Source of the DNA: Chelativorans xinjiangensis
Lineage (GTDB): Bacteria > Pseudomonadota > Alphaproteobacteria > Rhizobiales > Rhizobiaceae
Length of the DNA stretch: 64,000 bases
Assembly (NCBI RefSeq): GCF_009812055.1
Contig: NZ_WQNH01000027.1
Coordinates: 1 to 64,000 of the forward strand
Direction of reading: 5' to 3'
Positions 537 through 64,000 of this stretch are shown here, piece by piece; the first letter of the stretch is position 1; every line of letters begins with the position of its first letter. The notes under the pieces were generated by a model, which saw only the letters and a list, made by a program, of their open reading frames with translations, was not told the origin of the DNA and made no database searches. A program made the translations under genes and the position numbers.

Positions 537-560
537 TGGTGGGTTTCTTTGAAATGCTGG

Positions 561-776
561 CGCCCCGTCGCGCCCCCCTCTGTCCTGAGCTTTGTCGAAG
601 GGCCGGACATCTCCCCCACACGGGGGGGGGGGAGATCGGCCGTCATGACGGTTTTCGCCAATCATCTACGTCGCAGAACAGGCACCGGAGCAAACGGCCA
701 GCGCAATCTCCCCCCGTGTGGGGGAGATGTCCGGCCCTTCGACAAAGCTCAGGACAGAGGGGGGCGCGACGGGGCG
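561..776. repeat. Inverted-repeat element, copy A (full)
   Basis: Two arms of roughly 60 bp, about 561-635 and 705-776, are nearly perfect reverse complements. They enclose a unique core containing GTTTTCGCCAATC and GGAGCAAACGGCC. The same arms and core recur at 10957-11139 and 20367-20549, and one arm alone at 15781-15845. Copy A carries an extra block, CTGAGCTTTGTCGAAGGG, in each arm that copies at 10957 and 20367 lack. It lies in a non-coding region upstream of modA. Confidence 0.85.
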
Positions 777-1053
777 CGGGCTTGGCCGCTAACCTCGGTT
801 ACGGCTCCTCACTCCGCCGCCGCGTTCTCCCGCAACAGCCGTTCGGGCGCCCGGAGAGGAGGCGGGGGCTTTCTTGCCAAATGGCGGTGCGCGCGGCATA
901 AGCTTGGGGGCGCCGAGAGGGTGCGGGCGGCGGTGATTGGCTGCCTGTGTGTCAAGGGCATGGCGGCATCCGGGGCGCGGATGCCGGGGCTGTCCACCAT
1001 CACGTCCTGCTCATGGGGCGCGGAGAGCGCGCCGCCGACCCTGGAGGATGTGT
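777..1053. other. Upstream region of modA
   Basis: This gap between repeat copy A and modA has no supported gene. It presumably holds the modABC promoter. I could not identify a ModE-type operator or a molybdenum-cofactor riboswitch core in it. Confidence 0.4.
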
Positions 1054-3608: not shown

Positions 3609-3774
3609 TATCGCATATGGAGTCTTTAGTTCGGCTTCGCCGGACCCCCACCCTCAATCCATCCCCTCAAGGGGGAGGGAAGCCGGTCGAGCACGCCATC
3701 GTCCCCCTCCCCCTTGAGGGGAGGGGTTAGGGGTGGGGGTCCGGCGAAGCCGAACAAAGACTCCATTTGCGATA
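3609..3774. repeat. Long inverted repeat between modC and dctP
   Basis: Left arm 3609-3654 and right arm about 3730-3774 are near-perfect reverse complements of about 45 bp. The inner segments CCCCTCAAGGGGGAGG and CCCTCCCCCTTGAGGGG also pair. The element could fold into one long hairpin covering about half of the modC-dctP gap. Its sequence is unrelated to the 561-776 family. Function is unknown; it may simply end modC transcription. Confidence 0.8.
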
Positions 3775-9895: not shown

Positions 9896-11161
9896 CTACG
9901 CCGCCAGGCTCGCCGCCAAGAGCGTGAGGCCGAGGAGCAGCACGAGGGCGGCGCCGGCGATTTCGATGCCTGTGTGGATGCGGGCGCTCCAGGTGCCGCC
10001 TCCGGCGACCGCAACCGCCCAGTTCTTGGCCGTCACGGCGAGCGTCGCCAGGATGGAGACGGTGATGGCCGTGCCCAGCGCCATGGCGAAGACGGAGACG
10101 ATGCCGCCCAGCCAGAGCGCGTTGAGGAAGGAGAAGGTGAGGACGATCAAGGCGCCGGAGCAGGGCCGCAGGCCCACCGCCGCTACCGCCGACCAGCCCG
10201 TCTTCCAATCGAGGCGGTCGCCGGCAAGACGTGTGGGATCGGGCGCATGGGCGTGGCCGCAGGAGGGGCAGACCTCGCCCGGCGCGTGATGGTGGTCGTG
10301 GTCCTCGTGGTGGTGGTGATGCCCGTCCTCGTGCGGGTGGTGGTGATGGTCGCCTCCCGCATGGGCGGCCGACAGGCTGTGCATGGGCTGCGACGGTCCC
10401 TCACGCGCGGTGAGCTGGCGCAGCTTGCGCCACAGGAGCCAGGCGCCGAAGGCGGCGATGAGGGCGAAGCTGGCGCTTTCGAGGAACCATGTCGCGTTGG
10501 TCATGGAGACGGCGGTGCCGCGCAGCGCCAGAAAGACCGCCGCCATCAAGAGGATCGCCGTGACCGCCTGCAACATGGCGGCGGCGAAGGAGAGCGCGAC
10601 GCCGCGCCTCAGCGCCACTTCGTTGGCGACCATGTATGAGGAGATGACTGCCTTGCCGTGGCCGGGGCCGGCGGCGTGGAAGACGCCGTAGGCGAAGGAG
10701 AGGCCGACGAGCATCCAGACCTGCGAGCCGTCCTCGCGCATCGCCTTCAATGCGCCCGTCAGTGCCCGGTAGAAGGCCTGCTGCTGGACGTTGACCCATT
10801 GCAGGAGGCCGGCCAGGGGGCCGCTGGGAGCCATCGACGGTTCGGCCGCGCCGATGCCCAGTGAGCTCTGGGCATGGGCGGCGGGGAGGAGGATGAGCAG
10901 CGTCGCCGCTGCAATGAGCGCGAGTTTTGTCGAATTGCTGAAGCCGGGTAAGAGCGGCGCCCTTTCGCGCCCCCCTCTGTCCTGCCGGACATCTCCCCCA
11001 CGAGGGGGGAGATCAGGCTTCGCCACTGTTTTCGCCAATCGCAAGCGTTGCAGGACAGGTGTCGGAGCAAGCGGCCGGCGTAATCTCCCCCCTCGTGAGG
11101 GAGATGTCCGGCAGGACAGAGGGGGGCGCGAAAGGGCGCAGTCTTCACTCATTTTATCCAT
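9896..11161 (-). CDS. NicO-family nickel/cobalt exporter with repeat-encoded N-terminus
   Basis: Inner-membrane Ni/Co transporter of the NicO/RcnA type. The core has several helices, motifs FHAAGPGHGKA and GLRPCSGALIVL, and a long histidine-rich loop between helices (about 20 His in 45 residues) that likely binds metal. The reading frame starts at ATG 11161, overlapping the DUF1007 stop by 8 bp. Residues about 8-68 are encoded by the 10957-11139 inverted repeat, read through without a stop. No ATG, GTG or TTG occurs between the repeat and the signal/first helix (STKLALIAAATLLILLP), so initiation must be in or before the repeat. The true start is uncertain. Confidence 0.82.
   Translation of the reverse strand: MDKMSEDCALSRPPLSCRTSPSRGGRLRRPLAPTPVLQRLRLAKTVAKPDLPPRGGDVRQDRGGRERAPLLPGFSNSTKLALIAAATLLILLPAAHAQSSLGIGAAEPSMAPSGPLAGLLQWVNVQQQAFYRALTGALKAMREDGSQVWMLVGLSFAYGVFHAAGPGHGKAVISSYMVANEVALRRGVALSFAAAMLQAVTAILLMAAVFLALRGTAVSMTNATWFLESASFALIAAFGAWLLWRKLRQLTAREGPSQPMHSLSAAHAGGDHHHHPHEDGHHHHHEDHDHHHAPGEVCPSCGHAHAPDPTRLAGDRLDWKTGWSAVAAVGLRPCSGALIVLTFSFLNALWLGGIVSVFAMALGTAITVSILATLAVTAKNWAVAVAGGGTWSARIHTGIEIAGAALVLLLGLTLLAASLAA
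10957..11139. repeat. Inverted-repeat element, copy B (full, within a reading frame)
   Basis: Arms at about 10957-11012 and 11085-11139 are reverse complements and the core matches copies A and D (GTTTTCGCCAATC, GGAGCAAGCGGCCGGCG). As bounded here it is 183 bp, or 61 codons, and is open in the frame of the NicO gene. It sits between the coupled DUF1007 stop/NicO start and the first transmembrane helix of NicO. Confidence 0.85.
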
Positions 11162-11819
11162 TGGCGCTGCACTGGATCTCGAGCTTGGTTGCGAAGATCT
11201 TGCTGAGGTCGTTGCCGCCCGGTTCGTTGAAGAAGGCGTCCGTGAGCGTTTGCTGGTTCTGGGCGATGGCTTCGTCGGGGTCGGGGCGGATTACCTCGCG
11301 GCTACAGCCTTGCGGCAGGTTCTCCACCGCCATGTAGCTGTCCTCGGTGAAGTCGATGGCGGTGTAGAAGGTCGGGTCGTAGACGCCGAAATCCAACTTG
11401 CCTTGAAGCTCCAGAGGCTCCTTCGGCCGCGATTCGAAGAGGATGATGAGCTGGTTGTCGGTGAAGTCGGCGATGAGCTTTTCCGGCGGTTCCATGGCCA
11501 CGTCGCGGCCGTCGGCAGTGACGATCTGGAAATAGTCGAACTCGGCGAGCGATTCGTGGACGACATTCGCGACCTCCTGCAGCTCGTCGGCGTCGAGCTC
11601 AAGGTCCTGGTTCTGGTCGAACTCGACGAGCACGGTGCTGGAGAAGAGATCGTCGAAGCGCCAGACGTGGCGCAGCGCCTCAACCTGGCTGTCCTTGGAG
11701 ACGGCGACATCCAGCCGAGCCTCGGCGAAGACGTGAGGGTGCGCCAGCGACGGAGCGCTCGCGGCGGACAGAACGGCGACCGTCCCCATCGCCGTTGCTG
11801 TTCTCTTCCAAGAGTGCAT
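11154..11819 (-). CDS. DUF1007 family periplasmic protein
   Basis: About 221 aa from the likely ATG at 11819; an upstream start at 11867 would add 16 residues. A signal peptide ends near APSLA, followed by the DUF1007 hallmark HPHVFAEARLDV. DUF1007 proteins are regularly encoded next to NicO nickel/cobalt transporters, as here, and are inferred to assist metal handling in the periplasm. The stop codon overlaps the start of the NicO frame, so the two are probably co-translated. Confidence 0.85.
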   Translation of the reverse strand: MHSWKRTATAMGTVAVLSAASAPSLAHPHVFAEARLDVAVSKDSQVEALRHVWRFDDLFSSTVLVEFDQNQDLELDADELQEVANVVHESLAEFDYFQIVTADGRDVAMEPPEKLIADFTDNQLIILFESRPKEPLELQGKLDFGVYDPTFYTAIDFTEDSYMAVENLPQGCSREVIRPDPDEAIAQNQQTLTDAFFNEPGGNDLSKIFATKLEIQCSANG

Positions 11820-11888
11820 GCGCTGCTGTCCCCATCGGTATCGTGAGAGAGGTGCGTTATCTATCACGAAGCCGGCGAAAATGGGACA

Positions 11889-14099: not shown

Positions 14100-14539
14100 C
14101 GCCTGCCCAAAGTCGCACGTGCCTGTGGGTGTCCGCCGAACCTCGGAAATGGCGAGGAACTCGGTAAGGTACCTGGAACTAACCCCTCCAGTCGGTTTCG
14201 CGGCCAACCACGAAATCGAGGACATCTTGAAGCAACGACGGTGCGGGCCTTTCTGGTGTCTGCCGGTTGTCCAAAAACCGGGGTTACTGAAGAGGCACAC
14301 CTTCATTGCCGGCAGTGCGGATGGGGTCTCCCATACCAAAGCTGAGGCAGACAAAGCAGAGCATTCGCCGCGAGGCGGGAGCTTATCGTCATGCGTTAAA
14401 CGCATCCGTGGTTTCCGGTGATTTCCACCCTCCGGCCCATCGATCCGTTCATCGCATCCTTTGTCCACCGCGGGCAGACCAAGCCCGCTGAGCTTGAGCT
14501 TTGATTGAAGCGGCTTCGGCCGCCGAAGGAGAGACCCCG
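14100..14539 (+). promoter_or_regulatory. Probable speF-type structured leader of the ornithine decarboxylase gene
   Basis: The 540-bp gap before the decarboxylase holds no supported gene. It contains the block GGTAAGGTACCTGGAACT (14163-14180) followed by AACCCCTCC, which I recognise as the core of the alphaproteobacterial speF RNA motif found upstream of ornithine decarboxylases. Downstream are a GCGGGC/GCCCGC hairpin (14471-14489) and, just before the Shine-Dalgarno sequence, a GCGGC-TTCG-GCCGC hairpin (14511-14524) that could control ribosome access. A role in polyamine-responsive expression is inferred. Confidence 0.6.
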
Positions 14540-15703: not shown

Positions 15704-16387
15704 ATGAAACCTGCGAGTGCGGGATTTTTCGAAATGAGTTTGTCGTCTTATGCCGATGGTCGTGGGGTGCGCTCTACGTTGCCCCCCTCTACCCTGAGCT
15801 TTGTCGAAGGGCCGGGCATCTCCCCCACAAGGGGGGAGATCGGCGGTGGTTATGCCTTTGCCATCACCCCTGAAGCCGCTGCGGACGCTGCCGCGCGTGA
15901 GGCGCTGCTCGACCGGGCCATGGGCCCGAAGCGCAAGCGCAAATCGTCGGAGAAGCTGCGGCGCGGGCGTTTGCCGGCGGAGGGGTTGGCGTTTGTCGCG
16001 CGCGGTCCGGATGGTTCTCTCGTGGGAACCGTGCGGTTGTGGGACGTGCGGCTCGGCGAGACGGGTGTGCCTGCCTTGCTTCTCGGGCCGCTGGCGGTCG
16101 ACCCGGCAATGAAGGGTGAAGGCATCGGTACGGCTTTGATGGGCCATGCGGTTGGCGAAGCGAAACGGCGCGGCCACGGCGCTATCCTGCTGGTCGGCGA
16201 CGCGCCGTACTATGCACGTTTCGGCTTCTCGGCGGAAAAGACCGGCCGGCTTTCCATGCCCGGCCCGTATGAGCGGGAGCGCTTTCTGGCGTTGGAGCTT
16301 GTCGGCGGGGCGCTTGATGGGGCGCACGGAGTGCTGAAGCCCGCGAGGCGGAACATCCGTTCGGAGGCGTTGGCGCGCGCGGCGTGA
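15704..16387 (+). CDS. GNAT acetyltransferase with repeat-encoded N-terminus
   Basis: The C-terminal 180 or so residues are a GNAT domain: FAITPEAAADAAAREALLDR at its start, the LGPLAVDPAMKGEGIGTALM acetyl-CoA loop (key G-x-G), and APYYARFGF. Homologues usually begin close to the ITPE segment. Here the frame starts about 47 residues earlier and residues about 26-47 are encoded by a half copy of the inverted-repeat element (15781-15845). No ATG, GTG or TTG in this frame lies between the element and the domain, so initiation is upstream (15704, 15734 or 15767). It lies 30 bp after the decarboxylase, probably cotranscribed. Confidence 0.75.
   Translation: MKPASAGFFEMSLSSYADGRGVRSTLPPSTLSFVEGPGISPTRGEIGGGYAFAITPEAAADAAAREALLDRAMGPKRKRKSSEKLRRGRLPAEGLAFVARGPDGSLVGTVRLWDVRLGETGVPALLLGPLAVDPAMKGEGIGTALMGHAVGEAKRRGHGAILLVGDAPYYARFGFSAEKTGRLSMPGPYERERFLALELVGGALDGAHGVLKPARRNIRSEALARAA
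15781..15845. repeat. Inverted-repeat element, copy C (single arm)
   Basis: One arm only, with the CTGAGCTTTGTCGAAGGG block as in copy A and then CATCTCCCCCACAAGGGGGGAGATC. The core and second arm are absent. It lies inside the 5' end of a GNAT acetyltransferase frame and is translated in that frame. Confidence 0.8.
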
Positions 16388-20323: not shown

Positions 20324-20366
20324 TGGTTACCGCGGTGCTGAGGGCGATTGAACAACGGGAATGGCA

Positions 20367-20549
20367 GCGCCCTTTCGCGCCCCCCTCTGTCCTGCCGGAC
20401 ATCTCCCCCACGAGGGGGGAGATTGGCCGTCGCTAACGGTTTCGCCAGTCGGTAACGTCTTACAATAGGTGCCGCCGCGAACGGCCGGCGCAATCTCCCC
20501 CCCTGTGGGGGAGATGTCCGGCAGGACAGAGGGGGGCGTGAAAGGGCTC
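20367..20549. repeat. Inverted-repeat element, copy D (full, flhA-fliR gap)
   Basis: Arms at about 20367-20430 and 20495-20549 are reverse complements around a core with GGTTTCGCCAGTC and GCGAACGGCCGGCGCAATC, matching copies A and B. It fills most of the 237-bp gap between flhA and fliR, which are usually close together. The hairpin may affect transcript stability or read-through. Confidence 0.85.
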
Positions 20550-20560
20550 GGCATGGGTGG

Positions 20561-55591: not shown

Positions 55592-58500
55592 ATGACGAGA
55601 GATACGCAAAGTCGGGCGACAGATTCCGGTAAACTCGACGGGGCATGGCGCAAGGGCGGGAAGGCTTTCGCGTTTATGCTCGCAAGCGTCCTGTTCATGG
55701 GCGCCCATATGGACGTAGCGCAGGCGGTTCAGCGCAGCTTTCTCAACCTTGGGTTTGAGGAGCCGGCGATGAATCCCAATCTTGCTAACAACGGCGATCC
55801 AACCTGCGAATCGATCGTGATCCCGGCGGAAAGCGGGTTGGTGCCCGGGTGGAAGACGACTCATGCGACGATGACGGATGGGGGGCATGTCAGGCGGTGC
55901 AGCTTGATGAGCGGACAGAACTACTCGGATACGGGCAATATGATCGATATCTGGTACACCGGAAGGGTCAACGGGATACCTTCGTACGCGGGAAACCAAC
56001 TTGCGGAACTGAACGCGCTGGACGTATCGCGCATATATCAGTCCGTCTGCCTGCTGCCGAATGACGAGATCGGGTGGTACTTCAGCCATCGTGCGCGCAC
56101 GAGCACCGGGGATACGGCGGTCTTCAGGATCAACGATTCCAACGGCGCCCTGCTGTGGGATATCGCGGAGGTCACGACCGACACCAACGGCAACGGCAAC
56201 GTCGATGCCTGTTCCCACGGCAACTGTGCCCCCGCTGCAAAGGTGAACACCTGGTCCTACTACGAGGGCAACTTCACATGGACACAGCCCGCGGGGGAAT
56301 ACCAGTTCGGTTTCGAGGCGCTGGGGAACGGCGGCGGCCAGTTGGACTACGGCAATCTCATCGATGAAATCAATATTTCCGGCCTCGTTCCCTTCGTCGA
56401 ACTGGAGCAGGCGAGCGGTGAGGGCGAGGAGGGCACGGCAAGTCCGGGGAACATCCTCGTCAGCGGCGAAGTCAAGCCTGGTGAAACACTCACCGTGACC
56501 CTCGCGGTCACCGACGGGACGGCAACCGGACCTGCCGACTACAGCGGCGGGCCGACGGTCACGATCTCGATCCCCGAAGGCACATACGACGCGGAGCCCT
56601 TCGCGATCCCCGTGTCGATCCTCACGGACCAGGAAAAGGAAAACAGGGAACAGTTCACCATCGAAGTGGTGGAGAACGAAGCCGCCTACATAATATCCAG
56701 CACCCGCCAATGCGGTGGCGCCGGCATCGACTCCATGACCTACACGATCTTGGATGCGCATATGGAGATCACGAAAGCCGCGGTATACCAGGACACAAAC
56801 GGGGACGGTTTTGCGAGCGACGGCGACACAATCCAGTACACCTTCACGGTGACGAACACGGGGGATGTGGACCTTACCAATGTAACGGTCACGGACCCGA
56901 CGGTGCCTGTCACCGGCGGTCCGATCGCGATGCTTGCGGCGGGGGCGTCGGACAGCATCACCTTCACGGCGGCCCCTTACACCATCACCCAGGCGGACGT
57001 GGACAACGGCTCCGTAGAGAACCAGGCGACAGTGACGGGGACAGCTCCAGGAGGGCAGGACGTCACCGACATGTCCAGCGATCCGAACAATCCGGATGGC
57101 GGCCCGGACGGCCCGACGGTGACCGAGCTGGAGCAGGAGCCGGCTCTCGAGCTAATCAAGACGGGGACGTTCAACGACGACGGTGCCGGCGCCGCGAGCG
57201 GAAATGGCTTTGCGGAGCCTGGGGAGACGATCAGCTACACGTTCACGCTTACGAACAACGGCAACGTGCCGATCACGGACCTCACACTGACGGATGATTT
57301 TATCACGGCGAATGGCGGGCAAATAACGGGCGGGCCGATCACCAGGCTGGATCCGAAGGGCACGGACAGCACCACCTTCACGGCCACCTATACGATCACG
57401 GAGAATGATATTGCGGCGGGGGGTGTTACGAACCTTGCGACGGCAACGGGCAAGGACCCGTCGGGCCAGGATGTGACGGCGCAGTCGCATGACGGCAGCG
57501 GGACGCCGGGGACGGGAACCTTTACGGAATTGAAGCAGGGCGCGCCGGCTCTCGATCTTCTCAAGAAGGGGGCGTTCCAGGACGAGTTGGTTCCCAACGG
57601 CTATGCCGAAGCGGGCGAGACCATCACCTATACCTTCACGCTGGAGAACAAGGGCGATGTGAAGATAAGTGGGATCGTGGTGACGGACCCGAGGATCGCG
57701 TTGCCGCCCATGACGCCGGTGGACCTGGAGAAGGGGGGCACGCACGAGTTCACATTCGACTACACGATCACGGACGCGGATATCGACGCCGGCGGGTTCA
57801 AGAACACGGCCGTGGCGACGGGCACGGACACGTCGGGCAAGGATGTGACGGCGACCTCGCACGATGAGAACGGGAACGCGGGGACAGAGGTCGTGCTGGA
57901 GAGGGGCTCTTCGGCCTATACCGTGGTCAAGTCAAGCGGCGCCTTCCAGGACGCGAACGGCAACGGCTATGCCGACGAGGGGGAGACCATCACCTACACC
58001 TTCAAGGCCATGAACCTTGGCGATGTGGTGCTGAGCGATGTCGGCGTGGAGGACGCCAGGATCGGCTATGTCTCGGAGAAAGCGACGCTGCAGCCGAAGG
58101 GCACGGCGGGCGACACGCATGAGTTTACCTTCGACTATGCGATCAAGAAGGACGATCTGGAGGAGGCCATGATCGAGAACGTCGCCGTGGCGACGGCAAC
58201 GGACCCGACAGGCAAGAAGATCCCGCAGAAGTCGCATCCCGAGGGCAAGCCGCCGGGCACGCCGACGGTGACGGATATTCCCTATGGGGATAGCGACTTC
58301 ATCAAGACATCCGTCGGCGTGGTGGACCACAACGGCGACGGGGTGACGGGGAATGCGGGCGACCGCATCAACTACGCCTTTACGATCATAAACATGGGCA
58401 ACGTGGCGATCGAGGACTTCGCGATCGATGATCCCGGGGCGGTGATCGAGGGCACGCTTGCCGCGCCGATCCCGGTCGGCGGCCAGGACGAGACGAGCTT

Positions 58501-60487
58501 CACGGGCTATCACGTGATCACGCAGGAGGAGATCGACGCGGGCTCCTTCACCAACCTTGCCGAGGGGACGGGGACGACGACGGGAGGCGGGACGTTCACC
58601 AAGACGTCGCGCAACGACAAGGAGGGCAGCAAGGAGGGTGACGCGACCGAAACGCCGTTGGAGGCGACGCCGGGTATCGAGACCGAGTTGGTGTGCACGC
58701 CCAAGGACACGAACGGCACCGGCATCATCGATGCCGGCGACAAGCTCCAGTGCGAAGTCATCGTCACCAACAAAGGCAATGTGACGCTGAACGATGTGAC
58801 GGTCGCCGGGGTGAAAGCACCCGAGGTGCCGGGAGCGACGACGCCCGTGGCCGATGTTGCAGGCGAGCCGATCCCCGTGCTCAAGCCGGGGGAAACCAAC
58901 AAGACGAGCTTCACCGTCGAGTATGAGCTGACCCAGGAGGATCTGGATGCCGGCGGGGTGCTGTTGCAGGTGGAGGGGGTCGGCACGCCGCCGCCCAAGG
59001 CGGACGGCAGCCCGGCGGACCCTGTGACGGACCTTTCGGACGACCCGGCCAACACGGCCGACGAGGATTTGGACGGCGACGGCACTCCCGACGATCCGGC
59101 CCATGTCCGGCTGCCGGAAGCGGTGAAGCTGAAGGTGACGGACAAGGAAACCGTCATGCCCAAGGGCTTTCCCAAGGCCGGCGATGTGATCGAGTACAAG
59201 GTGACCATCGACAATGTGGGCAATGTGACGGCCAAGGACGTGAAGCCGAAGGATCCCGGCCCGACCTTCGCCGGCCAGCGTGGGACCGGCACCCTGTCGG
59301 CCTTCGAGCCGGCCTCGGTGGCCGCGCTGCAGCCGGCCGACGCCCCGGCGATCTTCACCGCCTTCTATACGCTCTCCGCCGAGGACGTGGCGCGTTCGGC
59401 CGGCCAGCCGGAGGGGGTCCAGAACACCGCCAGCGCCGAGGGCGGCTCGGCGCGCAGCGGCAAGCCGATCGACAATGTGGAGCCGGCCACGACCAAGGCG
59501 GAGCTGCCGAGCTTCGGGCTTACCAAGGAATCGCGGCTTTCGCAGGCGCGGCGGGGCGAACGGGTGCCCTACACCATCACCATGATGCCGGTGGGCATCG
59601 AGGACGACACCCAGTCCGTCACGCTGATCGACACCATGCCTCCCGGCTTCACCTATGTCGAGGGCTCGGCGATGATCGACGGCGTGGCGGTGAAGCCCGA
59701 GCAGCGTGGCCGCGAGCTCGTCTTCGAGAACGTGCCCTACACGGTCGATACGGAGGAGATCGTCGTGGAACTGAGCCTCGCCGTCTCGGCCGCCCTCAAG
59801 CCCGGCGAATATGCCAACCAGGCGAAGGTGATCGTGGACGGTGTCGAGGGGCAGGTGATCTCCCCCATCGCCAAGGCAGTGATCGAGGTGGTGCCCGAAC
59901 CGGTCTTCGACTGCGGCGATCTGATCGGCAGGGTGTTCGACGACATCAACCGCAACGGCTACCAGGACGTGGGCGAGCCGGGGCTGGCGGACGCCAGGGT
60001 GGCGACGGTGGACGGGCTTCTCGTCACCACCGACGCCCACGGCCGCTTCCACGTGGCCTGCGCCGATATGCCGGACGCGCGCATCGGCTCGACCTACCTG
60101 ATGAAGCTCGATCCGCGCACGCTGCCGACCGGCTACCGCATCGTCAGCGAGAACCCGCGCACGGTGCGGCTGACGGCGGGCAAGGCCTCGCGCCTCAACT
60201 TCGCCGCCGCACTCAGCCGCGTCGTGCGCGTCGACCTGAACGATGCTGCCTTCGAGCCGGGCATGCTGGAATTGAAACCCGAGTGGCAGGTGAAGCTGCC
60301 GCAGCTCATCGCCCTGCTGGAACCCGAGGAATCGGTGCTGCGCCTCGCCTATGTCGACGCCGGCGCCGACCGCAAGCTCGCCGCCAACCGCATGAAGCAC
60401 ATCCGCCGCGCCATCGACGGCATGTGGAAGGAAAAGCCCGGCCGATACCGGCTCGAGATCGAGACCAAGATCGAGCTGAGCAAATAG
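55592..60487 (+). CDS. Giant secreted DUF11-repeat protein with C-terminal OmpA-like domain
   Basis: 1631 aa from ATG 55592 (GGAGACAGGAA upstream). Order seen: signal peptide with long basic N-region (cut near 45); lectin-like N-terminal domain (about 46-315); Calx-beta-like segment (320-388); about eight DUF11 repeats of 110-150 aa starting near 389, 516, 650, 770, 900, 1025, 1176 and 1306; one SdrD B-like Cna domain (about 1438-1540, GRVFDDINRNGYQDVGEPGL); and an OmpA-like domain (1542-1631). Repeats carry D-x-N-G-D/N-G motifs that look Ca-binding. It is probably a surface or matrix adhesin held to peptidoglycan; no beta-barrel or type I secretion tail is obvious. Confidence 0.85.
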   Translation: MTRDTQSRATDSGKLDGAWRKGGKAFAFMLASVLFMGAHMDVAQAVQRSFLNLGFEEPAMNPNLANNGDPTCESIVIPAESGLVPGWKTTHATMTDGGHVRRCSLMSGQNYSDTGNMIDIWYTGRVNGIPSYAGNQLAELNALDVSRIYQSVCLLPNDEIGWYFSHRARTSTGDTAVFRINDSNGALLWDIAEVTTDTNGNGNVDACSHGNCAPAAKVNTWSYYEGNFTWTQPAGEYQFGFEALGNGGGQLDYGNLIDEINISGLVPFVELEQASGEGEEGTASPGNILVSGEVKPGETLTVTLAVTDGTATGPADYSGGPTVTISIPEGTYDAEPFAIPVSILTDQEKENREQFTIEVVENEAAYIISSTRQCGGAGIDSMTYTILDAHMEITKAAVYQDTNGDGFASDGDTIQYTFTVTNTGDVDLTNVTVTDPTVPVTGGPIAMLAAGASDSITFTAAPYTITQADVDNGSVENQATVTGTAPGGQDVTDMSSDPNNPDGGPDGPTVTELEQEPALELIKTGTFNDDGAGAASGNGFAEPGETISYTFTLTNNGNVPITDLTLTDDFITANGGQITGGPITRLDPKGTDSTTFTATYTITENDIAAGGVTNLATATGKDPSGQDVTAQSHDGSGTPGTGTFTELKQGAPALDLLKKGAFQDELVPNGYAEAGETITYTFTLENKGDVKISGIVVTDPRIALPPMTPVDLEKGGTHEFTFDYTITDADIDAGGFKNTAVATGTDTSGKDVTATSHDENGNAGTEVVLERGSSAYTVVKSSGAFQDANGNGYADEGETITYTFKAMNLGDVVLSDVGVEDARIGYVSEKATLQPKGTAGDTHEFTFDYAIKKDDLEEAMIENVAVATATDPTGKKIPQKSHPEGKPPGTPTVTDIPYGDSDFIKTSVGVVDHNGDGVTGNAGDRINYAFTIINMGNVAIEDFAIDDPGAVIEGTLAAPIPVGGQDETSFTGYHVITQEEIDAGSFTNLAEGTGTTTGGGTFTKTSRNDKEGSKEGDATETPLEATPGIETELVCTPKDTNGTGIIDAGDKLQCEVIVTNKGNVTLNDVTVAGVKAPEVPGATTPVADVAGEPIPVLKPGETNKTSFTVEYELTQEDLDAGGVLLQVEGVGTPPPKADGSPADPVTDLSDDPANTADEDLDGDGTPDDPAHVRLPEAVKLKVTDKETVMPKGFPKAGDVIEYKVTIDNVGNVTAKDVKPKDPGPTFAGQRGTGTLSAFEPASVAALQPADAPAIFTAFYTLSAEDVARSAGQPEGVQNTASAEGGSARSGKPIDNVEPATTKAELPSFGLTKESRLSQARRGERVPYTITMMPVGIEDDTQSVTLIDTMPPGFTYVEGSAMIDGVAVKPEQRGRELVFENVPYTVDTEEIVVELSLAVSAALKPGEYANQAKVIVDGVEGQVISPIAKAVIEVVPEPVFDCGDLIGRVFDDINRNGYQDVGEPGLADARVATVDGLLVTTDAHGRFHVACADMPDARIGSTYLMKLDPRTLPTGYRIVSENPRTVRLTAGKASRLNFAAALSRVVRVDLNDAAFEPGMLELKPEWQVKLPQLIALLEPEESVLRLAYVDAGADRKLAANRMKHIRRAIDGMWKEKPGRYRLEIETKIELSK

Positions 60488-60496
60488 ATAGGGCCC

Positions 60497-60523
60497 GAGC
60501 GGCGGCGTGTATGGCCGCCGCTC
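60497..60523 (+). terminator. Terminator hairpin after the first DUF11 gene
   Basis: GAGCGGCGGC (60497-60506) and GCCGCCGCTC (60514-60523) form a 10-bp stem with a 7-base loop, 10 bases after the stop codon. It separates the first DUF11 gene from the second, which has its own upstream block. Confidence 0.75.
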
Positions 60524-60524
60524 A

Positions 60525-60575
60525 CGGTAAACATACCCGTTAGCAAACTGACGTAAGCGTTCTGCCTTTCCTATA
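60525..60575 (+). promoter_or_regulatory. Upstream block shared by both DUF11 genes, copy 2
   Basis: GGTAAACATACCC, then GCAAACTGACGTAA and TCTGCCTTTCCTATA, matching the series at 55235-55284. It ends about 108 bp before the second DUF11 start, against about 307 bp for the first gene. Confidence 0.6.
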
Positions 60576-60682
60576 GTGCCGCTGATCTTTTGCTCGCGCC
60601 TCGAAGCGCAGCTCCACCGTACGCGTCCCCGTACATGCGTCAGCCCGACAACCCTCGTCACGAAGCAAGGGAGTTCTTCCTT

Positions 60683-63600
60683 ATGCCCAACATATCAATC
60701 CGCCGATTTCTCCGTGGCACGCAGGAGCATGAGAGACGGAATCTGCCTGGCTTCTGGAACATAGGCCGGGCAAGGCCACGCGCGGCGGGCATCATCCGCC
60801 GCCTTCGCTCCTGGCTTGGATCGGCCTGGCGCATGGAGAAGCTTTCGCGCGCGCTGCCCGCCATCATGCTTCTGGTGCTGTCGGCCCTTAGCACAACGCC
60901 CGCCGCCGCCCAGAACGTTCCGCCGACCTCGCCATGTGTAGTGGGCGAGGCAACGACACCTGCCGGTTGGTACATAATTGAAGAGACTCCGGATTGCTCC
61001 GACACCGAGAATTGGGGTGTAGGCCCCACCCCGTGGGACAATGGGTCTCTTCCTCCGCTTCCGACTGGAGAACCGACTTTCGCCACCATGATCATAAATA
61101 CGCTTCCAAGCACCGGGACTACCCGTGAGGCCATCGGAACAAACATCACTGGCCTTGTCGTGGGGCGACAATACCAAATCTCATTCTTCGCAATGGGTGC
61201 GGCGGCGACATATGTCAGCGGAAACTTAAGAATTCCGTATCCGGCGTGTCCCCAATTGCAGGTTGGAGTTTCTGGCAATGCACAAAGCTTCGACATTCCC
61301 AACGAAAGCTGGGGCTTTCATTCCTATTCCTTTACGGCAACGGCCGAAACCGAAGAGCTCATTGTCCGGGCCTGGGGCGAAGGCGAGGATTATTGCCTCA
61401 CCAACTTCGCGTTCGGCCTCAGCGCTCTGAAAACGGTCAAGACGGCGTCGACCGGCGCGACCAACGCGGGCGATACCGTCACCTTCACCATCGAAGTCGA
61501 GAATACCGGCGTCGAGCAATTGACGAATATCGGGGTGGACGACAACCTGCTCGAGCGGGAGGACGGCACGCCGCTGCAATTGACCTCCGGCCCTACCTGG
61601 GTCTCCAACAGCGGCTCCTCCCCGCAGGGAACGCTCCAGCGTCAGGAGAAGGCGACCTTCACTGCGACATATGTTCTGACGCAGGAAGATGTCGACGCGG
61701 GCCTCATCCGGAACCAGGCCACAGCCGTGGGAACGCACTCCACCGCTGGCGAGTTCTTCGCCCCCTCGCGGCCAGGCCCGGTGGACCCCGAGGGTCCGAC
61801 CGAGGTGCCGATCCCCCCAAATCCGGCCATCGATGTGCTCAAGCAAGGCACGTTGAGTGACGATGGGACGACCATCACCTACACCTTCACGGTCAGCAAC
61901 ATCGGCAACGTGACGGTTAGCGGGATTACCGTCACGGACCCCCTCTTTACGGTGCAGGGCGGGCCTATCACTCTGGCGCCGGACGCAACGGACAGCACCA
62001 CTTTCACGGGGACCTACACGGTCACCGCGAACGATCTGGCGGCGGGCCAGGTGGAGAACGTCGCCACGGCGGCGGGCACTGACCCGAGCGGCGCTCCGGT
62101 GACAGCGCAGTCGCATGACGAAGGGCAGACGCCGGGCACGCCGACGGTGACGGAGCTGAAGAAGAATGCCGCCGTCGACCTCACCAAGACAGGCGCGTTC
62201 AACGACGAGAACGGCAACGGCTTCGCCGAGCCTGGCGAGACGATCGGCTACACCTTCACGGTGAGGAACACCGGTGATGTGGCCCTCACCAATGTGACGG
62301 TCACCGATCCGAAGGTAAGCGTCACGGGAGGGCCGCTCGCCACGCTTGCGGCGGGGGCGACGGACAGCACCACCTTCACGGCGACCTACACGCTCACCGC
62401 GGACGATCTGGCGGCGGGCCAGGTGGAGAACACGGCCACGGTGACGGGCACTGACCCGGGCGGCGCGCCGGTGACGGCGCAGTCGCATGACGAAGGGCAG
62501 ACGCCAGGCACGCCGACGGTGACGGAGGTGGAGCAGGGCACGTCCGGCCTCGACCTCACCAAGACAGGCGCGTTCAACGACGAGAACGGCAACGGTTTTG
62601 CGGAGGCGGGCGAGACAATCGGCTACACCTTCACAGTCAGGAACATGGGCGATGTGGACCTGACCAATGTGACAATCACCGATCCGAAGGTCAGCGTCAC
62701 GGGCGGGCCGCTCGCCACGCTTGCGGCGGGGGCGACGGACAGCACCACCTTCACGGCGACCTACACGGTCACCGCGGACGATCTGGCGGCGGGCCAGGTG
62801 GAGAACGTCGCCACGGCGACCGGCACCGACCCGAGCGGCGAGCCGGTGACGGCGCAGTCGCATGACGAAGGGCAGACGCCAGGCACGCCGACGGTGACGG
62901 AGGTGGAGCAGGGCGCGTCCACCTTCGACCTCACCAAGACAGGCACGCTCAACGACGCGAACGGCAACGGCTATGCCGAGCCTGGCGAGACGATCGGCTA
63001 TACCTTCACGGTCAGGAACACCGGCGATGTGGACCTGACCAATGTGACGGTCACCGATCCGAAGGTCAGCGTCACGGGCGGGCCGCTCGCCACGCTTGCG
63101 GCGGGGGCGACGGACAGCACCACCTTCACGGCGACCTACACGCTCACGGCCGAGGATCTCGCAAACAGCACGTACGAGAACACGGCCACGGCGACGGGCA
63201 CCGACCCGGGCGGCGCGCCGGTGACGGCGCAGTCGCATGACGAAGGGCAGACGCCGGGCACGCCGACGGTGACGGATACTCCCTTGGGGGACGGCGACTT
63301 CATCAAGACGTCGGTGGGCGTGGCGGACCACAATGGCGACGGTGTGGTGGGGAACGCGGGCGACCGCATCGATTACGCCTTCACGATCGTCAACATGGGC
63401 AACGTGGCGATCGAGACCTTCACGATCAGCGATCCCGGGGCTGTGATCGAGGGCACGCTCGCCGCGCCGATCCCGGTCGGCGGGCGGGACGATACGAGCT
63501 TCACGGGCTACCACGTGATCGCGCAGGAGGAGATCGACGCCGGCGTGTTCAAGAACCTCGCCACGGGGACGGCGACGACGCCGGGGGGCGGGACGTTCAC

Positions 63601-64000
63601 CAAGGAATCGCGCACGGAGCAAGGCGTCGAAGGTGACGAGACGGAAACGCCGCTGGAAGCGACGCCGCAGATCAAGACCGAGTTGGTGTGCACGCCCAAA
63701 GACACGAACGGCAGCGGCATCATCGATGCGGGCGACAAGGTCCTCTGCGAGGTCATCGTCACCAACACGGGCAACGTGACGCTGACCGATGTGACGGTCG
63801 ACGGGGTGCAAGCGCCCGCGGTGCCGGGAGCGACGACACCTGTGGCCGAGGTTGCAGGCGGGCCGATCCCCGTGCTCAAGCCGGGGGAGTCCAACAAGAC
63901 GAGCTTCACCGTCGAGTATGCGCTGACCCAGGAGGATCTGGATGCCGGCGGGGTTCTGTTGCAGGTCGAGGGGACGGGCACGCCGCCGGTCAAGGCGGAC
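60683..64000 (+). CDS. Second giant DUF11-repeat protein, 3' end outside window
   Basis: 1106 codons are seen from ATG 60683 (AAGGGAG upstream), with no stop before the right edge. A 50-residue basic extension precedes a signal peptide (LSRALPAIMLLVLSALSTTP, cut near AAAQ); ATG 60833 would remove the extension but has no good ribosome site. After an N-terminal domain of about 170 aa (to about 245) come a DUF11-like repeat from about 250, four strongly similar ones from about 370, then two domains that match repeats 5 and 6 of the first gene in sequence and order. It should continue like its neighbour into an anchoring domain beyond the window. Confidence 0.85.
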   Translation, partial: MPNISIRRFLRGTQEHERRNLPGFWNIGRARPRAAGIIRRLRSWLGSAWRMEKLSRALPAIMLLVLSALSTTPAAAQNVPPTSPCVVGEATTPAGWYIIEETPDCSDTENWGVGPTPWDNGSLPPLPTGEPTFATMIINTLPSTGTTREAIGTNITGLVVGRQYQISFFAMGAAATYVSGNLRIPYPACPQLQVGVSGNAQSFDIPNESWGFHSYSFTATAETEELIVRAWGEGEDYCLTNFAFGLSALKTVKTASTGATNAGDTVTFTIEVENTGVEQLTNIGVDDNLLEREDGTPLQLTSGPTWVSNSGSSPQGTLQRQEKATFTATYVLTQEDVDAGLIRNQATAVGTHSTAGEFFAPSRPGPVDPEGPTEVPIPPNPAIDVLKQGTLSDDGTTITYTFTVSNIGNVTVSGITVTDPLFTVQGGPITLAPDATDSTTFTGTYTVTANDLAAGQVENVATAAGTDPSGAPVTAQSHDEGQTPGTPTVTELKKNAAVDLTKTGAFNDENGNGFAEPGETIGYTFTVRNTGDVALTNVTVTDPKVSVTGGPLATLAAGATDSTTFTATYTLTADDLAAGQVENTATVTGTDPGGAPVTAQSHDEGQTPGTPTVTEVEQGTSGLDLTKTGAFNDENGNGFAEAGETIGYTFTVRNMGDVDLTNVTITDPKVSVTGGPLATLAAGATDSTTFTATYTVTADDLAAGQVENVATATGTDPSGEPVTAQSHDEGQTPGTPTVTEVEQGASTFDLTKTGTLNDANGNGYAEPGETIGYTFTVRNTGDVDLTNVTVTDPKVSVTGGPLATLAAGATDSTTFTATYTLTAEDLANSTYENTATATGTDPGGAPVTAQSHDEGQTPGTPTVTDTPLGDGDFIKTSVGVADHNGDGVVGNAGDRIDYAFTIVNMGNVAIETFTISDPGAVIEGTLAAPIPVGGRDDTSFTGYHVIAQEEIDAGVFKNLATGTATTPGGGTFTKESRTEQGVEGDETETPLEATPQIKTELVCTPKDTNGSGIIDAGDKVLCEVIVTNTGNVTLTDVTVDGVQAPAVPGATTPVAEVAGGPIPVLKPGESNKTSFTVEYALTQEDLDAGGVLLQVEGTGTPPVKAD
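61850..63295 (+). repeat. Tandem coding repeats, period about 375 bp
   Basis: Four consecutive units of 372-375 bp. Marker GCGCAGTCGCATGACG begins at 62105, 62477, 62852 and 63227, and GACCTCACCAAGAC at 62177, 62552 and 62927. The last three units are nearly identical in DNA, so the duplications look recent or kept alike by recombination. Each unit encodes one DUF11 domain of 124-125 aa. Confidence 0.9.

Follow-up and report, generated by a model that had tools for sequence, protein, structure and literature searches.

A palindromic repeat in frame at the start of a Chelativorans NicO gene, probably within the n-region of its signal peptide

In the 64-kb stretch of Chelativorans xinjiangensis DNA analyzed here (the window), the start of the NicO gene is occupied by an inverted repeat. 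Where does translation of NicO begin, and what becomes of the residues that the repeat encodes? We examined the locus in the window's own genome (G000) and in its relatives, principally C. salis EGI FJ00035 (G006) and C. alearense UJN715 (G001). Features are collected in Table 1.

Table 1. Positions, or genomes, of the features discussed in the text.
Feature	Position in window, or genome	Strand	Basis or remark
NicO ORF, 421 aa, PF03824 at residues 148-419	9896..11161	-	Open frame and domain match
NicO signal peptide, h- and c-region (putative)	10871..10939	-	Ends ...LPAAHA before QSSLGIG; read by eye
Palindromic repeat, conserved part	10957..11139	.	Arms 10957-11018 and 11078-11139; RNA fold; family consensus
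Likely NicO start ATG	11159..11161	-	Overlaps DUF1007 stop; also present in C. salis (G006)
DUF1007 gene (PF06226), upstream of NicO	11154..11867	-	ORF and domain match
Second near-full repeat copy	20364..20552	.	Opposite orientation in G006; no copy in G001
Third repeat copy, longer subfamily	560..777	.	Inverted-repeat scan
Half copy (one arm) of repeat	15781..15840	+	In frame near GNAT gene start
GNAT acetyltransferase gene with half repeat	15704..16387	+	Frame and homologue comparison
FG-GAP/ASPIC protein gene with in-frame repeat	G000, G006, G010		
pabB with in-frame repeat	G000, G012		
hmuT with in-frame repeat	G011		
mltB with in-frame repeat	G000		

The repeat and the start of NicO

The preliminary description of this locus had reported a 183-bp inverted repeat without stops in the NicO frame, and mapping of the arms bore this out. 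The arms are 62 nt each, 95% complementary and separated by a 59-nt spacer; the NicO frame is open throughout, with the repeat encoding residues from about 8 to 69. Folded as RNA in the NicO sense, the repeat has an energy of -160.9 kcal/mol (z = -17.4; 0 of 200 shuffles were as good). Across copies of the family the arms extend weakly outward by about 10 bp (consensus TGGAGATGCCG adjoining GCGCCCC), so the 183 bp represent the well-conserved part and not the exact element. By eye, no clear target-site duplication was present in the flanks, and none was obvious at the empty mltB sites described below. A search of the window with Rfam at the gathering threshold gave two matches, neither of them on the repeat; these are an ar45 sRNA (14105-14252, plus strand) and an adjoining speF leader (14261-14389, plus strand). 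The window also contains a separate palindrome with different arms at 3626-3758 (54 nt, 91% complementary) and, towards its end, a long coding-like stretch of repeats of about 375 bp (56757-63928).

An ATG overlapping the upstream stop codon had been described as preceding the repeat, and it was found there: it reads 11161-11159, the DUF1007 stop TAA reads 11156-11154, and the two genes overlap by 8 nt. A second in-frame ATG lies at 11150-11152. The further claim that no ATG, GTG or TTG separates the repeat from the first helix also held, as the nearest such codon is 40 codons past the repeat and beyond the hydrophobic segment. NicO of C. salis, which is 95% identical to that of the window, allowed the choice of start to be narrowed. 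A 183-bp repeat sits in frame at the identical site, with its boundaries and near-identical flanks kept, and the protein has the same MDK-MSED start, both upstream ATGs being shared. Since the C. salis repeat contains zero ATG, GTG or TTG codons, the start would lie upstream of it if a usual codon is used, which refines the earlier proposal of a start in or before the repeat. On these comparisons, translation of NicO through the repeat from an upstream ATG is likely.

The window copy does contain TTG (11044), TTG (11038) and GTG (11026) in frame, and initiation at one of these would yield an extension about half as long. We consider this improbable, because the C. salis copy at the same site lacks such codons while the upstream ATGs are common to both genomes. 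Initiation after the repeat at a non-canonical codon, such as the ATT that begins IAAATLL, would fit the lack of usual starts in that stretch; however, such starts are rare, no purine-rich Shine-Dalgarno-like stretch was seen by eye ahead of the ATT, and we regard this as extremely unlikely. A long insertion beside a start codon often harms expression, and NicO might accordingly have been damaged or silenced and be becoming a pseudogene. Against this, the gene and its signal segment are intact and retain their close identity to the C. salis gene, which has the same insertion, making the pseudogene reading very unlikely.

The very stable hairpin of the repeat begins 12-21 nt past the two ATGs, where it may interfere with initiation. 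Its folding energy would also suit an RNA device, in which cleavage of the hairpin in the DUF1007-NicO message, or ribosome pausing at it, sets the level of NicO, the open frame being incidental. According to one report, related repeats of Neisseria are cleaved as RNA by RNase III (PMC2229807). This reading leaves unexplained why an upstream start is kept in frame in nine instances (see below), and we judge it quite improbable as the explanation of the locus, although it is compatible with in-frame insertion and the two are not exclusive.

The hydrophobic segment that follows the repeat had been taken for the first membrane helix of NicO. Instead, it is most likely a cleavable signal peptide, as judged by eye from its site, AHA|QSSLGIG: the stretch ends in LPAAHA, which is followed by QSSLGIG. 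Sites of the AHAQSSLGIG type are present in all 16 aligned NicO proteins, with A97, Q98, S99, L101, G102, I103 and G104 invariant in 16/16. In an AlphaFold model of modest quality (mean pLDDT 63.7), residues 1-73 have pLDDT below 50 and no secondary structure, and the next helix comprises residues 76-95. Because the first helix has the look of a signal peptide that is cut off, the residues encoded by the repeat would probably be lost; that signal peptidase removes them is a reasonable inference.

The reading that we hold to be probable is thus that the n-region of the NicO signal peptide received an in-frame insertion of a MITE-like palindromic repeat, which is translated from the upstream ATG and whose product is then cleaved off. 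Translation would most likely start at the ATG overlapping the DUF1007 stop, by coupled re-initiation; the ribosome would read the 61 repeat codons and then the hydrophobic signal segment; and signal peptidase would cut after AHA. As the repeat-encoded residues would be lost with the signal, mature NicO would be unchanged. The n-region would tolerate the repeat because n-region length is little constrained and because most copies of the repeat, read in this phase, are free of stops in either orientation. We infer the choice of start, the production of the extension and its cleavage from sequence features, while the in-frame insertion into the n-region is itself well supported by the sequence comparisons.

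The NicO site in related genomes

The distance from the DUF1007 stop to the start of mature NicO is 283 bp in the two repeat-bearing genomes, G000 and G006, and 76-226 bp (57-207 bp shorter) in 14/14 other members of the genus, all of which are without the repeat. A shorter start in homologues without the repeat had been predicted, and the 100 bp that remain after subtraction of the repeat (283 - 183) agree with it. Among 80 named loci, BLASTN placed the repeat at NicO in C. salis only, although more diverged copies could escape such a search. Unrelated inserts, each open in frame, were noted at two other NicO starts: one in Mesorhizobium sp. M4B.F.Ca.ET.203.01.1.1 with a 32-nt internal inverted repeat (L110:2083-2212), and one in Chelativorans sp. 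Marseille-P2723 with a 20-nt internal inverted repeat (L054:1831-2020).

The flanking DNA of C. alearense (G001) is nearer to that of G000 (94.8 and 95.8%) than is that of C. salis (92.0 and 93.6%). A candidate repeat remnant at NicO in G001 was rejected as not significant, since 3/60 shuffles matched as well. With neither a repeat nor a proven remnant in G001, the ancestral NicO site is not cleanly visible there. Because G001 is closer and yet has no repeat, either an early insertion was followed by loss in G001 and by a flip or replacement in one lineage, or there were two insertions.

The two NicO copies lie in opposite orientations, with 41/41 library copies favoring one way for G006 and 40/40 the other way for G000. 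Their cores are 77% identical, and they have just 4 derived bases in common, of 16 and 20. The opposite orientation and the few shared derived bases, together with the absence of a copy from the closer G001, argue for independent insertions at one hot spot. Conversely, the boundaries and length of the two copies are identical and their flanks nearly so, and a single insertion could have its core inverted or replaced through recombination between the 62-nt arms. Taking both sides together, we put independent insertion a little short of an even chance. We also tried the two copies as mutual closest relatives and rejected this, as they ranked 25 and 10 for the whole element and 11 and 19 for the core among 79 copies. 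Orientation could be judged at three sites common to G000 and G006 (NicO, FG-GAP and the copy at 20367) and is opposite at all three. Four other shared pairs (pabB in G000 and G012, two with G008 and one with G001) have the same orientation. At the second window site, 5/60 shuffles scored as well as any remnant in G001.

Copies of the repeat and other gene starts

An initial scan of G000 scored 40 of 165 candidate stretches, and further searches brought the total to 73 distinct copies with a length of 100 bp or more, of which 71 are at least 150 bp. The repeat is thus a dispersed, multicopy short element with a 183-bp consensus, no transposase gene and, in its 62-nt arms, the terminal inverted repeats of bacterial MITE-like palindromes. 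With few candidates scored per genome, matches were found in 71/121 genomes of the bacterial family, spanning 66/109 genera. A further 159 plasmid records match, Sinorhizobium and Rhizobium among them; of the best 40 of these, 38 carry no annotated feature at the site of the best match and 2 are unannotated, the gene table being incomplete.

Openness of the frame proved to be weak evidence of translation, as most copies are stop-free. Among copies of exactly 183 bp, including that at NicO, 10/10 are open in the NicO phase one way and 8/10 the other way; under a Markov null, a 183-bp frame is open in 52% of cases per strand and in 20% on both strands. For the same reason we rejected the open frame as proof of selection. 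Since the repeat is readable on both strands, either orientation can sit in NicO. The screen for coding-like frames downstream of copies favored open frames, and a check set of 21 closed coding-like frames, read by eye, mostly had a normal start codon downstream of the repeat and included 0 broken signal peptides.

The frame screen and homologue searches together gave nine instances of full-length repeats in frame at the 5' end, in five genes including NicO. Each of the nine can be read without a stop from an in-frame start ahead of the repeat, which is ATG in eight and TTG in mltB. In 4/5 genes (FG-GAP, hmuT, mltB and NicO) an apparent signal peptide carries the repeat in its n-region; PabB is cytoplasmic. 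No usual start separates the repeat from the conserved part in 5/9 instances (NicO twice, FG-GAP of G000 and pabB twice). In the other four (G011 hmuT, G000 mltB, and FG-GAP of G006 and G010) a usual start follows soon after the repeat, and initiation there is possible. The in-frame kind accounts for 4/73 repeat copies of G000.

Clean empty sites were found for mltB, where G001 reads MSRLTPIL and G006 reads MRSLTPIL against (TTG)KSLA-repeat-KAPIL in G000. In G001, pabB and FG-GAP both encode short proteins, and their start regions likely hold repeat remnants, with scores of 53 (shuffle maximum 33) and 33 (shuffle maximum 27), respectively; these scores are inflated, because the library included the G000 copies of the same sites with short flanks. 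At the GNAT gene, the half copy in the window (60 nt) corresponds to shorter in-frame pieces in G006 (23 nt) and, more weakly, G001 (27 nt). That pieces of differing length are all in frame suggests that the frame is under selection. A TRAP-transporter gene (L129) was dropped as an in-frame case because its normal start lies later. Among the G000 copies collected first, where base composition was the sole guide, no C-terminal fusion was convincing.

A broader view is that the repeat acts as a portable two-way N-terminus, repeatedly entering operon junctions and supplying secreted proteins with their start and n-region, with the frame kept as length, core and orientation change from one species to the next. 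Often an ATG stands at the end of the repeat (ATGGAGATG) or within its arm (ATG-SGRTEGGAKG, which includes basic residues), which would fit such a role; we find this generalization rather unlikely.

Relation to known palindromes and implications

Rickettsia palindromic elements (RPEs) are described in two reports as short dispersed palindromes in frame within protein genes (PMC10969869, PMC2229807). The likeness to RPEs drawn in the preliminary description is fair with regard to in-frame presence inside protein genes. The Chelativorans repeat belongs to another bacterial order, and the in-frame cases found are all at gene starts, those of 4/5 full-length genes at signal-peptide n-regions. Another parallel is the enterobacterial RU-2 element in YPO1552, likewise MITE-like, from which residues 1-30 of a predicted signal peptide (1-41) derive, the signals of homologues being unrelated (PMC2759123). 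As described there, RU-2 forms part of the signal, whereas the Chelativorans repeat would lengthen the n-region of a signal that relatives also have, and would do so in several genes and species. RIME and Bru-RS, compared here by name and description, are dispersed palindromes of related bacteria (rhizobial and Brucella) and in this resemble the Chelativorans repeat, but they are described as intergenic, unlike our in-frame cases. In its behavior the repeat resembles RPE and RU elements, and we claim membership in neither. Our search of the open-licence literature found no report of this repeat by name or of in-frame cases in rhizobia.

In-frame palindromes are already known from Rickettsia and enterobacteria, and if the extended precursor is made, the present case would add the free-living Rhizobiaceae. 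Automatic choice of start sites and signal-peptide calls will fail at repeat-bearing genes, which is a warning for annotation. The natural pairs of filled and empty sites, mltB above all, provide material on how long an n-region can be. If the precursor is made, signal-peptide n-regions would be a landing site for translated mobile palindromes at almost no cost, since the foreign residues would depart with the signal.
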